64,000 bases of DNA. Origin: Pseudonocardia ammonioxydans (GTDB lineage Bacteria > Actinomycetota > Actinomycetes > Mycobacteriales > Pseudonocardiaceae). The DNA lies in assembly GCF_900115005.1 (NCBI RefSeq), contig NZ_FOUY01000030.1, forward strand, positions 1 through 64,000, given 5' to 3'. The translations under genes and the position numbers were made by a program. How positions within the stretch are numbered: position 1 is the stretch's first letter; the number at the start of each line of letters is the position of its first letter. Below the pieces are notes generated by a model. It saw nothing but the letters and a program-made list of their open reading frames with translations, was not told the DNA's origin and ran no database searches. This document shows, in pieces, positions 3,451 through 9,860 of the stretch.

Positions 3451-4392
3451 TCAGGCCCGCGTCGGGTCGGCCAGGGCGACGAGCACCTCGCGCGGCCCCT
3501 CATAGGGGTCGCGGCCGTGGGCCGTGCGAATGTTGTCGACGACGAGCAGGTCCCCGCTCTGCCAGGGCTCACGGATGGTGTTGTCGGCGTACGCCTGCCG
3601 GATCCGGGACACGAGATCCCACCCGATGGGGGTGCCGTCGCCGAAACACGTGGTGACGGGGAGCCCCTCGGGCCCCAGCATGTCGCACAGCTCGGCGTGC
3701 GCCTCGGGGCCCAGGCTCCATTCGCTGTAGTGCGCGATCTCGTTGAACCAGCAGCGGGCACCTGTCGTCGGGTGGCGGACCACGGCCCGGCGGCGTTGCC
3801 GGGTGCGGAGCCGGCCGCCGGGGCACCACTCGACGTCGATGGCGTGTGCGCGGCAGTAGTCCTCGACACCGTGCCGGTCGCCGGTGCCGAAGGCGTCCGA
3901 CCAGGACGGGCCGATGTCACCGTTGTAGGTCCGCACCAGGAGCCATCCGTCCCGCGCGCACCGTGACACCAGGCTCGCCGGCAGCGCCTCGAGCACGGTC
4001 GAGGAGTCGACGAGCACCGTGGCCCCGCCGAGGACGGGTGGGGTCAGACAGACGAACATCATCAGGCCGGGGAACCGGTCGCGGTAGGACAACTCGTGGT
4101 GCGGGCACAGGGGCAGCCCCGGGGGCCAGCGGGTGGCGGAGTAGACACGGTCGGTGTAGGACCCCCGTGGGGCGAAGGCCTCCCGCTCGGGCATCAGCTC
4201 GTCGGCGAGCATCCGGATGACGTCGCCGGCCAGGATCGGGTCGTACAGGCCCAGGCCACGGACCAGTACCGCCCCGTACCCGACCGCCGCCGTCCGCACG
4301 GTCCGCCGTTCTTCGTGGGCCCAGCGCAACGGGTCCTCGGGATCGACGCGGAGCAGCGCCGGGGCACCGGCGTGGCGTTCCAGGGTGCTCAT
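3451..4392 (-). CDS. Clavaminate-synthase-like Fe(II)/2-oxoglutarate dioxygenase (TauD family)
   Basis: A 313-residue non-haem iron oxygenase. The metal-binding HxE appears in PHHELSYRDRFPG (TauD itself has HxD; HxE is typical of clavaminate-synthase and amino-acid hydroxylases), and the distal His and 2-oxoglutarate-binding Arg lie in NIRTAHGRDPYEGPREVL near the C-terminus. Such enzymes hydroxylate or desaturate free or carrier-bound amino acids. ATG 4392 overlaps the stop of the upstream NRPS-like gene as ATGA, so translation is coupled and the natural hypothesis is oxidation of a substrate held on, or supplied to, that protein. Length fits the family. The substrate cannot be read from sequence. 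Confidence 0.85.
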   Translation of the reverse strand: MSTLERHAGAPALLRVDPEDPLRWAHEERRTVRTAAVGYGAVLVRGLGLYDPILAGDVIRMLADELMPEREAFAPRGSYTDRVYSATRWPPGLPLCPHHELSYRDRFPGLMMFVCLTPPVLGGATVLVDSSTVLEALPASLVSRCARDGWLLVRTYNGDIGPSWSDAFGTGDRHGVEDYCRAHAIDVEWCPGGRLRTRQRRRAVVRHPTTGARCWFNEIAHYSEWSLGPEAHAELCDMLGPEGLPVTTCFGDGTPIGWDLVSRIRQAYADNTIREPWQSGDLLVVDNIRTAHGRDPYEGPREVLVALADPTRA

Positions 4393-7300
4393 GCCGGGGC
4401 CGGGACGGACCTGACGGGCAGGTCCCGCGCGGGGTTGCCGCCCCACGTCGCGCCTTCGGGGACCTCCTCGCCCTTCATGACGAACGAGTCGGCTTCGATC
4501 GCGGCGTCGTCGCCGACGGTGATGCCGTAGAACACGAACGCCCCGGTGCCGACGCTGACCCTGGATCCGATGACGATGTCGTCGGACTTGAAGACGCTGT
4601 CCTCCTGGGAGTGGCTCTGGATGATGCTGCGCTCGTTGAGCATGCAGTCGTCGCCGAGGGACACGAACGACCGCTCGACGATGACGCAGCCGCCGTCGTA
4701 GAGCCGGGCCCCGACCCGGACCCCGTTGAGCCGGTAGACCGGGCCCTTGAGCGGGGTCCCGTTGAACAGCGCCATGTGTGCCGGTGCGGGCACCTTCCAG
4801 AACCGCTCGTGCCCCCAGAACTCCGGTTCGTAGATCGAGCATCCGCTCGGGACCCGGAGCTGCAGGGGTCGAACGGCCTTGTCCACCAGAGCGAACCACA
4901 GCACGGTGAAGACGATGATCAGAACCTGCACGATGGCGATCTCCAACGCGCCCAGCGTCACCTCGAAGACCGCCATCGCCGGGATCAGCATCATGACCCC
5001 GCTCAGGTAGAGCCAGCGAACCCCCAGGTGCAGGAGCATGGTGAGCAGGTTGTGCCGGTTCTTGCCGCGCAGGGCCCGGTGCAGGGCGTCGCTGCCGAAC
5101 GCCAGTCGGGTGTCGCGGGCGACGGTGCGGGGGATCTCGAAGCTCGGTGAGCCGAGCAGGCCGGTGTCCGCTCGGACCGGTCCGTCGACGGGGACCATGA
5201 CCTTGGTACCGAGCAGGCAGTTGTCCCCGGTCCTGCCCTGTGACGGGTAGGTGATCCGGTTGCCGAGGAAGTTGCGTTCCCCGATCCGGGCCGGCGTCAC
5301 GCGGAACGAGGTGTGGGAGAACTCCGCGTTGACGATCGACAGCTCGTCGGCGACGACGGTGCCCGAACCGACCGCGGCCAGGTACGGGTTCTCGTGCTTG
5401 ACGCCCAGGCCGAAGTTGTTGCCCGTCTGCACCAACGGTGTCAGGTCGTAGCCCACCGCCCGCAGGTAGTGCGGGATCGCCGAGCTGTCACCGAACAAGC
5501 GGATGAACGCCGCGTTGTTGGTCATCGCCGCGACGGTTCCGTGGAGGAAGTAGTGCACACCGTAGAGCGGGTGGACCCGGCCCGGGCGCACCGCGCGGGC
5601 GAGCAACCGCGGGACGGTCGCGATGAGGACGAAGGCCAGGAGCAGGAAGCCGGCGATCAGGACGAGGGCGAGCCCGGCGATCTCGGCGTAGAAGTACCAG
5701 TGCACGAACGCCAGTGGTCCGGGGAACAGCAGCGCCCGCAGCTGCGGGACCTCGCGCAGGAGCAGGGTGAGGCCGCCGAACGAGAGCGGGGCGCCGATCC
5801 CCAGCAGCAGCGCCAGCTGCCACATCGAATAGAGGATCTTCCGGGCACGACCGCAGCGGGCGGGTGGGACGGTGCAGTAGTCCGCCGCGGCGGGCCGGGC
5901 GGGAGAACCGTGCCAGCGCTCGCCTGCCGGGACGGCCTGCCCGCTGAGCAGCGCGGAACTGTGTCCGAGCTGGCCGCCGTCGCCGATGCGGGTGTCGAGA
6001 TCGAGGATCGTGGCCTCCCCGACGAACACGTCGTCCCCCAGGGTGACCGGCCCGATGTCGATGAGCCCGTCCCGGGCCCGGTAGCCGGTCAGCATCGCAT
6101 CCTTGCGGACGACCGAGCGCTCACCGATGGACAGCAGGTCGGTACACACCGGAACGGACCGGGTGAACACCACCGAGTCACGACCGATCCGGGCGCCGAG
6201 CGCGCGCAGGTGGAACAGGTACAGCGGCGAGCCGCGGAACAGCACCAGCGGGCTCAGGCCCACGATCGTGCGGACGATCCAGAACCGGACGTAGCCGATG
6301 CTCCAGACCCGGATGGAGCGGGGCGTCCACCGGCCGATCAACAGCCACTTCACCACGATCGGGAACAGACACAGGAACACGAACACGCCCGCACCGACGA
6401 TCACGGCCCGGTCGTAGAGCTCGAGCAGGGTCGCCGACACGACCATCCACTCGTACCCCCAGAACAGCGGCAGGGCCATCAGGTAGGTCCAGCCCAGCAC
6501 GAAGCCGACCTGGAGCAGCCCGCACAGCACGTAGCCGGCGGTGCCCACCCGGCGGACCGGCGGCCCACGGCGCTCGACGACGACGGCGGGTTCCTCCGGC
6601 GGGCCGCCTGTCGTCGGGGGACCGGTGGGCGCCAGCGCGGAGGCCAGGAGCGCGAGGGTCGGATGGGCGTAGAGGTCCTGGATCGCCGGGGTCGGCAGCG
6701 CCGGGTCCGTGCGCAGGCGGGCGCAGAACTTCGCCATGGTGAGGGAATCGGCGCCCAGGTCGTCGAAGAAGTGCGCCTCGTCCGCGACCTCCTGCTCGAC
6801 CACCGCGGCCAGGACCGTCCGCAGCCGTTCCAGCAGCCCGGTCGTCGTCGGCGCGGACCGGTCGGGCGCGGGGGCCACCGCCGCCGCCAGGCCCGCCAGG
6901 GTCGGATGCCGGTAGATCTGTGGGATCGACAGGGTCGGGAGCACCGGGTCGGTGCGGACCCGTGCACAGAACTTCGCCATCGTCAGCGAGTCCGCACCGA
7001 GCTCGAACACGTTCGCCTGCGCCGGGACGCCGTCGAGCCCGAGCACCTCGGCCAGGACCTCGGTGAATCGTTCCTCGAGCACGTCCTGCGCCTGCCGCCC
7101 CGCACCGTCGTCCGGCACCGGGATCACGGTCGTCGGCGCGGCGGAGGTCGCCCCGTCCTGGATCCTGCCCCGGTACTCGACACTCCCGTCGGGCGTGATC
7201 CGGCCCAGGTCACCGGTGCGGAAGATCCGGTTCGACGGGTTCGCGGGAAGGCCCGGCGGAGCCGGGACGAACGCCTCCTGCTCCAGGTCGTCGCGGCCGA

Positions 7301-8576
7301 GATAGCCGCGGGCCAGTCCGGCCCCGACGATGCCGATCTCACCGGTCTCACCGCGCGGCAGGACCGTCGACGGGTCCCCGAGGTCCAGGACGACGATGCC
7401 GGCGGTCGGCAACGGGACCCCCAGCGACGACGGTCGTCCGGGGTCCAGTTCGGTCCAGGTGGTGATGACGGTCGCCTCGGGTGCACCGTAGGTCCCGATC
7501 AGCCGCCGCCCGGGACGGTGCCATCGCTCGATCACGTCGGCGGGGCACGATGCCGCGGACAACACCAACCGGACGGGGAGATGTCGCTCGTCGAGCACGG
7601 CCAGGGTCGCGGGGTCGCTGCGCAGCACGGTGACACCCCGTTCGCGCAGGAAGCCGCCCAGGGCCGCGTCGTCCAGGGCCGCCGCGTCCGGCGGTGCGAC
7701 CACCGTCGCCCCGGCCACCCAGGGCACCCAGGTCTGCTCGACCAGCAGGTCCGACGCCGGTGACTGTCCCTGGTACACCCGGTCCCGAGGTCCGATGCCG
7801 TACATCTCGACCGTGACACGGGCGACGTTGCAGACGGCACCGTGGTCGATCGCGACCCCGCACGGCCGCCCGTCGTCGTCCACGAGGTACACGATGTAGG
7901 CGACCGCGCCCGGCGCCCCGTGCTCGACGGCCGGCAGCCGTCGCGGACTCTGCTCGGCGACCGTCCGGGCGGCGAGATCGAGTGCGAGCACGGCCGTCCC
8001 GGCCCGGGAGTCGAGCCCCGGGAAGTCACCCGCGATCGACGAGGTGGTGAGCACCAGGGTGGCGCCCGCATCGTCGACGACGGCGCGCACCTGCTCGGGC
8101 GCGAGGCGGACGTCCAGCGGAACGTAGGTGGCACCGATCTTGGCCACCGCGAGCATCGCGGTACAGAGATCGGCCGGACGGTCGAGCAGGAGTGCGACCC
8201 GGTGCCCGGACCCGGCGTGGTGCAGCCGGAGGACGCGGGCCAGCCGGTTCGCCGCGGCATCCAGCTCCGGATAGGACAGGACTCCGTCCGCCGAGTCCAC
8301 GGCCGGGTGGTCGGCGCCGCCGAACCGGACCAGCCGGTCGCACTGTGCCTCGAACAGCGACTCCAGCCGCTCGGCCGCGCGGGCACGTCGGCCCTGCGAC
8401 ACGCGGTGGTCGATCAGGACACGACCGGAGGCGGGTGGCTCCGGGCCGGGGCCTGCGGCCACGTCATCGTCCCCGGCGCGGGCGGCACCGGTCGTCGTAC
8501 TGGGCTGTGGCCACATCGTCAGGGGAGAACCGGCGGGTGGAGCGCATGTTCTGTTTGTCGGATTCGCTGTGTCCAC
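4389..8576 (-). CDS. NRPS-like membrane protein: degenerate adenylation domain, two carrier domains, Pls/TIGR02353-type terminal region
   Basis: A 1395-residue protein from GTG 8576, chosen because AGGAGGT lies 6-7 nt before it; an ATG at 8603 is also in frame. Residues about 60-475 resemble an amino-acid adenylation domain with recognisable late motifs (TYGAPEATV, GEIGIVGAGLARGYLG, FRTGDLGRI). The ATP-binding loop is replaced (YLVDDDGRPCGVAI instead of a TSGSTGxPKG form), and the sequence stops at YRGRIQDG, so the C-terminal subdomain with the catalytic Lys is missing. Two carrier domains follow, each with GADSLTMAKFC (Ser about 530 and 611). Residues about 680-1395 alternate membrane segments with hexapeptide-repeat (left-handed beta-helix) blocks, as in the terminal domain of epsilon-poly-lysine synthetases. 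Its job may be to tether and process a substrate loaded in trans at the membrane. Confidence 0.8.
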   Translation of the reverse strand: MDTANPTNRTCAPPAGSPLTMWPQPSTTTGAARAGDDDVAAGPGPEPPASGRVLIDHRVSQGRRARAAERLESLFEAQCDRLVRFGGADHPAVDSADGVLSYPELDAAANRLARVLRLHHAGSGHRVALLLDRPADLCTAMLAVAKIGATYVPLDVRLAPEQVRAVVDDAGATLVLTTSSIAGDFPGLDSRAGTAVLALDLAARTVAEQSPRRLPAVEHGAPGAVAYIVYLVDDDGRPCGVAIDHGAVCNVARVTVEMYGIGPRDRVYQGQSPASDLLVEQTWVPWVAGATVVAPPDAAALDDAALGGFLRERGVTVLRSDPATLAVLDERHLPVRLVLSAASCPADVIERWHRPGRRLIGTYGAPEATVITTWTELDPGRPSSLGVPLPTAGIVVLDLGDPSTVLPRGETGEIGIVGAGLARGYLGRDDLEQEAFVPAPPGLPANPSNRIFRTGDLGRITPDGSVEYRGRIQDGATSAAPTTVIPVPDDGAGRQAQDVLEERFTEVLAEVLGLDGVPAQANVFELGADSLTMAKFCARVRTDPVLPTLSIPQIYRHPTLAGLAAAVAPAPDRSAPTTTGLLERLRTVLAAVVEQEVADEAHFFDDLGADSLTMAKFCARLRTDPALPTPAIQDLYAHPTLALLASALAPTGPPTTGGPPEEPAVVVERRGPPVRRVGTAGYVLCGLLQVGFVLGWTYLMALPLFWGYEWMVVSATLLELYDRAVIVGAGVFVFLCLFPIVVKWLLIGRWTPRSIRVWSIGYVRFWIVRTIVGLSPLVLFRGSPLYLFHLRALGARIGRDSVVFTRSVPVCTDLLSIGERSVVRKDAMLTGYRARDGLIDIGPVTLGDDVFVGEATILDLDTRIGDGGQLGHSSALLSGQAVPAGERWHGSPARPAAADYCTVPPARCGRARKILYSMWQLALLLGIGAPLSFGGLTLLLREVPQLRALLFPGPLAFVHWYFYAEIAGLALVLIAGFLLLAFVLIATVPRLLARAVRPGRVHPLYGVHYFLHGTVAAMTNNAAFIRLFGDSSAIPHYLRAVGYDLTPLVQTGNNFGLGVKHENPYLAAVGSGTVVADELSIVNAEFSHTSFRVTPARIGERNFLGNRITYPSQGRTGDNCLLGTKVMVPVDGPVRADTGLLGSPSFEIPRTVARDTRLAFGSDALHRALRGKNRHNLLTMLLHLGVRWLYLSGVMMLIPAMAVFEVTLGALEIAIVQVLIIVFTVLWFALVDKAVRPLQLRVPSGCSIYEPEFWGHERFWKVPAPAHMALFNGTPLKGPVYRLNGVRVGARLYDGGCVIVERSFVSLGDDCMLNERSIIQSHSQEDSVFKSDDIVIGSRVSVGTGAFVFYGITVGDDAAIEADSFVMKGEEVPEGATWGGNPARDLPVRSVPAPA

Positions 8577-8587
8577 GACCGGACCTC
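8567..8587 (-). promoter_or_regulatory. Ribosome binding site deciding the NRPS-like start
   Basis: On the minus strand AGGAGGT is followed by 6 bases and GTG 8576. The upstream in-frame ATG at 8603 has no comparable site, so the GTG is preferred. Confidence 0.6.
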
Positions 8588-9122
8588 CTGGGATCGCGAC
8601 CATTTCACTCTGAATTCACGGGGGCGGCACCGAACTCGTGCGGGGATTCCGGCGTGTTACGGGAAATCCGCACGCGTCGGGCAAGGGGACGGTAAAATGA
8701 TCAGCAGTAAAGCCAGGGGGCGGTTAACAGGGCGGTATGTCCTGAATGACCTGTGGTGGCGAACATCTTGCGGCGCAGGATCATACCTGTCGACCCGGGC
8801 CGGTCGCCGCTGTCGTCGTCGTCCGTTCTGAGGATTGTCGACCGGTCGGGTGCGGAGATCCGAAATCGCTCCGTAGTGGGCGGAGGGGTGTGGTGCGCGG
8901 GCGTTCGTGACATTCTCCGGTGGTCTGCACATCCGAATCGCGCAGTCGTTGTCCGGACCGAACTCGTCGTTTGCTGATGTGCTCGTCCCGATCCGGGGGA
9001 GGATTTCGCCCGGACCGTCCGTTCCTGACCGTTTCGCGGGTGGTGTCGCCGCGCCGACCGCTCGGTGTCGCGGTCCGCGGGCGGATCGGGACGAGCGGTG
9101 TCGGGAGCCGGCGGTCGGGCCG
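8577..9122. other. Long 5' region of the NRPS-like operon, no gene seen
   Basis: About 545 bases between two minus-strand genes. The stretch 8600-8760 is less GC-rich than the genes (for example GGTAAAATGATCAGCAGTAAAG near 8690-8712), as expected for a promoter and leader of the NRPS-like gene. A minus-strand frame spanning 8657-9163 is not protein-like. No riboswitch or RNA gene was recognised. Confidence 0.45.
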
Positions 9123-9860
9123 TCAGGGGCGGGGCAGGTCGTCACGGCCGGCGACCACGGCACGGGCGAGCTCGGTGAGGCGGTGGTTGTGGTCGCGGGC
9201 GTGCCCGCGCAGCAGCCGGAACGCCCGCTCCGGGTCGAGCCCGAACCGTTCCACGACGATCCCCTTGGCCTGTTCGATGACCACCCGGCTGCCCAGTGCG
9301 GTCTGCAGCTGTTCGATCACTGTGGCCTGGCCGAGGCGTTCGCGGTGCTGCAGGAGCCCGATCGTGGCGACGTCGGTCAACGCCTGGGCGATCCGTGCCG
9401 AGTCCGGTCCGAGTCGCCCCGGGCTCCGCCCGAGCAGGTTCATCGCCCCGATCGCGCGGTCGCCGTAGCGCATCGGCAACGCGTGGACCGCGGCGAACCC
9501 GGCCTGCCGGCACGCCGGGCTGAACCGGGGCCACCGGTCGACGTGCTCGGCCACGTCGTCGATCAGCATCATGGTGCCGGAGCGGTGGCACTCCAGGCAG
9601 GGGCCCTCCCCGGCCTGTAGCTGGTACAGCTCGAGCTGGCGGGCCTCGTGGGTGCTGGCCGCCATCACCTGCAGCCGGCCCTGCGGGTCGGCCAGCAGCA
9701 GCCCCACCGCGTCGACCTCCAGCAGTCGCACGCAGCGGTCGCAGAGCCGGAGCAGGAACTCCACCAGGTCGAATCCGGCCACCAGGGTGTCGGCGCACTC
9801 GACGAAGACCTCGGCCAGCTCGCCGGTCCGGTTCGGTGGCCACCCCGACTGCGTGTCCAT
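9123..9860 (-). CDS. GAF-ANTAR transcription antitermination regulator
   Basis: A 245-residue cytoplasmic sensor. Residues about 15-165 are a GAF domain (LLADPQGRLQVMAAST, ALPMRYGDRAIGAMNLLG), and the C-terminal about 60 residues are an ANTAR RNA-binding domain (LQTALGSRVVIEQAKGIVVERFGLDPERAFRLLRGHARDHN is the usual core, read here in two parts). ANTAR proteins bind paired hairpins in nascent RNA and prevent termination. ATG 9860 follows a GGGAGGG ribosome site. It stands alone, and its RNA targets are probably elsewhere in the genome. Length and domain order are typical. Confidence 0.9.
   Translation of the reverse strand: MDTQSGWPPNRTGELAEVFVECADTLVAGFDLVEFLLRLCDRCVRLLEVDAVGLLLADPQGRLQVMAASTHEARQLELYQLQAGEGPCLECHRSGTMMLIDDVAEHVDRWPRFSPACRQAGFAAVHALPMRYGDRAIGAMNLLGRSPGRLGPDSARIAQALTDVATIGLLQHRERLGQATVIEQLQTALGSRVVIEQAKGIVVERFGLDPERAFRLLRGHARDHNHRLTELARAVVAGRDDLPRP

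Follow-up and report, generated by a model that had tools for sequence, protein, structure and literature searches.

Synthetases of the Pls/PosA type make cationic homopoly-amino-acids, antimicrobial polymers of diamino acids. In the described enzymes of this type, namely the epsilon-poly-lysine synthetase Pls, PosA and the poly-diaminopropionate (PDAP) synthetase of Streptomyces albulus PD-1, activation, carrier and polymerase functions lie in one chain, an arrangement in which the membrane polymerase is difficult to examine independently of activation; in the portions of the two accounts that we consulted, all of them activate their own monomer (PMC10522769, PMC4668381). The terminal domain of PosA has been modelled, according to the same portions, as six transmembrane helices and three left-handed beta-helices (PMC10522769), and the L-2,3-diaminopropionate (Dap) of S. 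albulus PD-1 is made by a cysteine-synthase-like and an ornithine-cyclodeaminase-like enzyme (PMC4668381). Among other nonribosomal peptide synthetases (NRPSs), stand-alone adenylation-thiolation (A-T) proteins complement inactive adenylation (A) domains in trans in the ramoplanin, enduracidin and albicidin systems, and with SyrB1 the A-T detour permits modification of the loaded amino acid before its use (excerpts of PMC8949500). We analysed here a gene of Pseudonocardia ammonioxydans, located in a stretch of 64,000 nucleotides (positions 1 to 64,000 of contig NZ_FOUY01000030.1, assembly GCF_900115005.1; hereafter the window), that encodes a Pls/PosA-type synthetase with a degenerate A domain. 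We consider it likely that this protein represents a split diaminopropionate polymer synthetase, with a dead A domain, that would be loaded in trans by a separate A-T protein.

The window protein resembles Pls and PosA in its A-core fold (by prediction), its carrier and its full terminal domain (630 bits), and this terminal domain is of the same type as that of the PDAP synthetase, as far as the latter is described in the part consulted (PMC4668381). It differs from Pls and PosA in having an A domain without the P-loop, A8 and A10, so that the monomer must come from outside, and in possessing two carriers where the published enzymes have one, in the descriptions at hand; the PDAP synthetase, by the same partial source, activates L-Dap in cis with its own A domain (PMC4668381). 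The likeness to the ramoplanin, enduracidin and albicidin systems consists in an inactive A domain and a separate A-T protein, the putative partner being here also N-terminally extended, but those systems, in the excerpts consulted, are multimodular lines whereas the partner would here feed a single polymerase domain (PMC8949500). The pathway to the beta-lysine oligomers of streptothricin likewise has a stand-alone A domain, but this enzyme is itself said to produce the polymer in the available text (PMC10522769). We found no report of a Pls-type synthetase loaded in trans in the open-licence PubMed Central literature, most subscription papers being outside the search. Since no earlier report was found and the parts are known separately, we regard as an apparently new variant this split combination, which would work like a Pls/PosA polymerase together with a trans-complemented NRPS and has, at this locus, the full definition of neither.

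The synthetase gene occupies positions 4389..8603 of the minus strand, on which all window positions given below also lie, and encodes 1404 residues from the first ATG (stop codon included in the coordinates). A previous sequence-only reading had placed an NRPS-like protein at 4389-8576; the motifs that it listed are real, but they are encoded on the minus strand, in a frame that extends 27 bases further; translated on the plus strand, the same coordinates contain stops. The start was placed at the first ATG, and about 55 N-terminal residues are unconserved. The protein is a member of the Pls/PosA family by its terminal polymerase domain (residues 694-1392, 4428..6524), which matches TIGR02353 over profile positions 2-695 of 695 with 630.3 bits, above the curated cut-off of 423.1. 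This full-length match would imply the presence of membrane helices and three tandem beta-helix domains. What the sequence-only reading called a membrane/hexapeptide region is this polymerase domain, whose family it had missed. Two carriers separate the A core from the terminal domain, both with the serine of a GADSL motif: the first matches PF00550 (residues 512-576, 6876..7070, Ser539), and the second has approximate boundaries (6624..6827, serine at about residue 620) drawn from a second PF00550 stretch and the motif.

The A core (residues 88-485, 7149..8342) obtained 161.8 bits with PF00501 (residues 97-435) and 262.6 bits with TIGR01733 (residues 110-482), below the cut-off of 317.4 of the latter. 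The late motifs and the replacement of the ATP-binding loop reported by the sequence-only reading are both confirmed: A7 is RTGDLGR at residues 462-468, and A3, YTSGSTGRPKG in relatives, has become YLVDDDGRPCG (residues 239-249, 7857..7889). The C-terminal subdomain, which it had also declared missing together with the catalytic lysine, is indeed gone. Similarity to A domains ends at about residue 482, where the TIGR01733 match stops at profile position 379 of 409; a Pfam search gave no match to PF13193, the model of this subdomain; and a hidden Markov model made from the subdomain of intact relatives was covered over its first 21 positions only, out of 130. A short linker (residues 483-505, 7089..7157) replaces the subdomain, and A8 and A10, the holders of the catalytic lysine, are absent. 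With A3, A8 and A10 gone, the protein appears to lack a functional A domain in cis and to have an inactive one in front of an intact carrier; by sequence and gene context, a catalytically dead A domain is part of the best-supported reading. A frameshift or an assembly error, considered in the sequence-only reading as a possible origin of the motif loss, can be ruled out: no stop codon interrupts the frame, and genes of other assemblies, L061 and L062 of P. parietis among them, are in the same state (L, G and C designate family loci, genomes and contigs, respectively; G000 is the window genome and C99 the window contig).

To place the window gene among its relatives, we sorted 118 distinct family frames into 76 intact, 24 dead (window gene included) and 18 without A domain; an enlarged set, collected at a slightly lower threshold, contained 138 frames, of which 79 were intact, 24 dead and 35 A-less. 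The combination of P-loop replacement and subdomain deletion, which the sequence-only reading had proposed to count among homologues, is thus common to 24 of the 138 frames, window gene included. A3 and the C-terminal subdomain were both kept in 79 and both lost in 24 of 103 frames, with no mixed case; as the intact class is defined by these two features, counting either alone would be circular, but their joint keeping or loss is not. The A10 lysine, which was not used in sorting, was found in 76/76 intact rows. A putative class of 20 rows retaining only A3 was rejected, these rows failing only the A8 pattern while carrying the full subdomain. L083, L035, L036 and the second L136 gene were counted as intact; L162, in G015, has a full C-terminal subdomain, that genome being classed through L024, and the intact genes of a distant subtype (L160-L173) were below the row threshold and used in the genome census only. 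The A-less class includes 29 firm frames; the frames of L123, L143, L155 and L175 start at a contig edge, which leaves their A status uncertain, and the two frames of L018 are halves of a single broken gene. Five intact-A loci (L046, L047, L048, L051, and L076) have frames of 1718-2356 residues instead of the usual 1400.

In a terminal-domain tree of 116 rows, built without the L018 pair, 16 A-less rows fetched later and L175, 23 dead and 14 A-less rows (including L123, of unsure A status) formed one clade (SH-aLRT 99) nested among intact synthetases. Additional losses were observed for L027 (dead) and for L039 with L017 (A-less). A mixture-model tree of 68 rows required three changes too, at least two of them forced by the starred branches; both trees are quick searches without bootstrap, and the 116-row tree has long branches that were left out of the 68-row tree. 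The putatively dead state is thus recurrent and inherited.

The dead rows retain part of the ancestral domain. TGD of A7 is kept in 24/24, while the A3 lysine is found in 0/24 (L068 and L126 being unreadable there), and a stump of A8 persists in L002, L012, L022, and L055. Long proline-rich repeats (PVPQ-type and APTP-type) occupy the site of the lost subdomain, between dead A domain and carriers, in L055 and L024. Two pocket residues of the window protein, Asp285 and Glu289 (7737..7751), were equated with Asp217 and Glu221 of PosA by motif position and not by structural alignment; in PosA, the Asp binds the substrate amine and the Glu the side-chain amine, according to the portion consulted (PMC10522769). 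Of the 23 readable dead rows, all keep Asp285, and at the site of Glu289 16 have Glu, six Leu and one Gln. A model of residues 60-690 of the window protein (48 sequences) had a mean predicted local distance difference test (pLDDT) score of 89.0, and its A core matched the PosA A-domain crystal structures (8g97_A at rank 36, with a TM-score of 0.92 by target length and 28% identity) as well as many other NRPS A domains. By prediction, the dead core still folds without its ATP-binding and turnover parts.

We compared the ratios of nonsynonymous to synonymous substitutions (dN/dS), computed by NG86 on hand-chosen close pairs, some of which share a sequence; the values are rough because of saturation in these GC-rich genes. 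The A-core medians were 0.28 in dead pairs (13 pairs, range 0.13-0.46) versus 0.16 in intact pairs (15 pairs), those of the terminal domain 0.34 versus 0.26, and the amino-acid divergence of the A core relative to the terminal domain had medians of 1.18 versus 0.68. Four dead pairs, L023/L003 and three among L042, L058, and L134, had an A core slower than the terminal domain. On these medians, the presumably dead A core is under weaker but real constraint, as in relaxed selection. Among the columns kept in at least 97% of the intact rows (92 in the A core and 42 in the terminal domain), the A core of 23 dead rows preserved a median of 76% and that of the window protein 67%; for the terminal domain, the median of dead and A-less rows was 100%, and the window protein kept 41/42. 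The pattern, as read from these alignments, is one of activation lost and polymerisation machinery kept.

These data bear on an alternative view of the core, compatible with trans loading, in which the dead A domain has acquired a new role and binds a diamino acid or a chain end without activating it, as an acceptor site, a gate or a length gauge. The retention of Asp285 and, mostly, of Glu289, the dN/dS below 1 and the predicted fold would fit such a role; selection is however weaker than on intact A cores, Glu289 is replaced in seven of the 23 rows, and the A-less members of the same clade do without the whole domain. We thus view a new role as possible but rather unlikely. The scaffolding or gating role raised in the sequence-only reading may likewise fit a selection that is relaxed but not gone, but some relatives have dispensed with the domain entirely.

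The split synthetase, which we prefer, would require a separate loader. A protein of about 840 residues with an intact A domain, C-terminal subdomain and carrier adjoins many dead or A-less genes: this A-T protein was found nearby in 15/24 dead, 15/35 A-less (12/29 firm) and 0/79 intact rows. A TauD-family dioxygenase was near 20/24 dead, 16/35 A-less (15/29 firm) and 0/79 intact rows; SbnA near 16/24, 11/35 (9/29 firm) and 1/79; and SbnB near 12/24, 7/35 and 1/79. In L025, the single intact row near SbnA, an A-less gene is present at the same locus. The flanks compared were 9 kb at most, often 4 kb and sometimes ended by contig ends, so that absences of partner genes carry little weight. In a search of 41 genomes seeded with the partner (E 1e-150), 21 of the 22 A-T matches had a dead- or A-less-class synthetase at a distance of about 4 kb or less, the synthetase of G003 being cut at its N-terminus. 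Distances among synthetases and among A-T proteins were correlated (Mantel r 0.67, 28 pairs, 0/2000 permutations as high), with a contribution of shared ancestry.

Forty partner frames, reduced to 29 distinct ones (including that of L176 in G030), all had an intact A3 and the motif FDIS[LVM]WQ, and 28/29 had N[AT]YG.TE.[SC]DD, the other one (L159) being a truncated frame. The specificity signature is near-invariant among the 29 proteins. Their N-terminal extension of about 240 residues gave Pfam matches to the condensation domain below cut-off in L043 and L045 (17.9 and 21.5 bits) and none in L039, these three having been tried; its model (pLDDT 86.6) is similar to condensation domains, 2jgp among them (TM-score 0.65 by query length). 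Taken together, the extension resembles a condensation domain reduced to its C-terminal lobe, the catalytic half being absent. By comparison, the extension of the enduracidin and ramoplanin partners has no substantial homology to known sequences, as stated in the excerpts consulted (PMC8949500). Other genes were observed at these loci: a different stand-alone adenylation protein of 577 residues, perhaps another loader, beside an A-less synthetase and TauD in L128 (13254-14984); a MoeA-like/PBP-like fusion beyond SbnA in L045 (9273-12080), L055, and L057; and a 2-phosphosulpholactate-phosphatase-like gene in L045 and L057.

The association was also recovered at the genome level. Among 25 Pseudonocardia genomes (G000-G024), 15 were assigned to the dead/A-less class, 14 of them firmly: the placement of G003 is not firm since its sole such gene, L155, is cut by a contig edge, and the class of G019 rests on L018, where the upstream distance to SbnA is too short to accommodate an A domain. 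SbnA was above cut-off in exactly these 15 genomes and in none of the 10 others. The partner A-T was detected in 14 of the 15 at E 1e-150, G008 having at a laxer threshold a contig-edge copy, 63% identical over 285 residues. The 10 other genomes contained no partner at 1e-80, the best matches (337 bits at most, 39%) being frames of 1039-8590 residues that resemble generic NRPSs. Seven of these 10 genomes have intact synthetases only and three none at all; SbnA and the partner thus track the loss of the A domain and not the family. Single Pseudonocardia genomes show expansions of TIGR02353, with 15 matches in G008, mostly A-less, and 11 in G016.

The nature of the neighbouring genes suggests L-Dap as monomer. 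SbnA matches TIGR03945 above cut-off (382 bits), and SbnB matches TIGR03944 below cut-off (242 bits for a fragment of 185 residues). With a putative assignment of its positions, the pocket signature of the partner resembles that of a pocket of the serine type to which one acid has been added, as would fit the amine analogue of serine. In S. albulus, similar enzymes supply Dap to the PDAP synthetase, and the genomes with the split type encode an SbnA of the PDAP-system kind, as far as that system is described in the part consulted (PMC4668381). In the mechanism that we propose, the separate A-T protein would activate L-Dap and load the aminoacyl group in trans onto the carriers of the dead-A protein, whose polymerase domain would then link the monomers through isopeptide bonds. 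Oxidation by TauD may take place on a carrier-bound monomer or on the product, and the dead A core would be retained as a relaxed structural or docking element.

At the window locus, this scheme finds only some of its components. The window genome contains dead genes on C99 (window), C74, C36 (contig-cut, with a matching piece on C120) and C93, an A-less gene on C50 and intact ones on C51 and C109. When G000 was searched at E 1e-90, A-T matches were obtained only on C93 and C50, near the synthetases, and none on C99, so that the window gene has no stand-alone A-T protein in its own cluster. SbnA (TIGR03945) is above cut-off at C50 and C93, with SbnB-like stretches beside both by similarity to L057, and genes for Dap synthesis are therefore present in this genome. 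The window gene, C74 and L061 and L062 of P. parietis form a subclade in which TauD was the sole partner gene found, P. parietis having a full cluster elsewhere (L134). The TauD gene of the window (3451..4392; PF02668, 126.4 bits) overlaps the synthetase by 4 bases and is likely co-transcribed with it; the same overlap exists in L041, and TauD is within 30 bases downstream in L061 and L062. Its motifs HHELSY and DNIRTAHGRD presumably provide the iron ligands. Since only the polymerase and TauD are left at this locus, the window protein would depend on an A-T loader from elsewhere in the genome, where two loci encode it.

Trans loading, one of the roles offered in the sequence-only reading, is the best-supported one, with a candidate loader family that is encoded elsewhere in the genome, but several observations weigh against it. 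A-T, SbnA and SbnB were not found beside the window gene nor beside its closest relatives L041, L061 and L062, and A-T was not within the compared flanks (9 kb at most) of 9/24 dead and 20/35 A-less rows. The exception among the 22 A-T matches, in G030, is 51% identical and comes from a genome with no TIGR02353 match at E 1e-60; the A-T family thus also occurs without the polymerase. This locus, L176 (G030:C6:34500-47500), has SbnA-like and TauD-like frames near its A-T-like protein, and the partner family may have another use. The Fisher value of the genome test (p 3e-7, G003 counted) overstates independence because the genomes, like the rows, are related. Trans loading, the monomer and the product are deduced from sequence and gene context, and the choice of Dap depends on the neighbours and on a putative mapping of the signature.

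The incomplete locus could also be explained if the window copy were an orphan duplicate on its way to becoming a pseudogene that, having been deprived of the genes for loader and precursor, no longer yields any product. The absence of a local A-T, SbnA and SbnB would agree with this, as would the low share of conserved A-core columns relative to the dead-row median and an A-core dN/dS of 0.38 versus L061 and 0.46 versus L041, among the higher of the 13 dead pairs. This explanation nevertheless seems improbable, given the open frame of 1404 codons, the dN/dS of about 0.35 for the terminal domain in the L061 and L041 pairs together with its nearly complete set of conserved columns, the serines retained in both carriers, and the TauD gene that overlaps it as in L041 and follows at a short distance in L061 and L062. 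Loading by an intact-A paralogue of the same cell (L029 or L060 in G000) instead of an A-T protein, which the two intact paralogues of G000 and the shared loci of A-less and intact genes in L025 and L047 might suggest, is quite improbable, as the 10 genomes that lack both A-T and SbnA include seven in which intact synthetases occur but no dead or A-less one, A-T and SbnA follow the dead/A-less class and not the family, and in G002, G018, G019, and G020 dead or A-less genes were found without any intact paralogue in the census.

We favour the idea that orphan synthetases use a shared loader rather than losing their function. In its most extended form, which we put forward only tentatively and consider doubtful, one Dap-loading A-T protein would serve several polymerases at distant loci (window, C74 and C36, in addition to the two with a local loader), and the orphans, having kept their own TauD, would make differently oxidised poly-Dap isopeptides, the loss of the cis A domain having freed the monomer for modification on the carrier of the loader before polymerisation.

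The other neighbours examined around the window gene, a LuxR-type response regulator, a STAS protein, a GAF-ANTAR protein and a short-chain dehydrogenase, look unrelated to the synthetase. The GAF-ANTAR protein (9123-9860), directly upstream of it, is likely an RNA-binding antiterminator.

These synthetases would offer a natural split version of an enzyme otherwise made in one chain, in which loading and polymerisation become separable for testing. Their A domains are at various stages of decay, some still with part of A8 and others gone entirely, and such a series would reveal which portions of the domain are necessary for the polymerase. The split version also directs attention to polycationic polymers of Pseudonocardia, Actinomycetospora, and Streptomyces that are still unexplored and may be oxidised.

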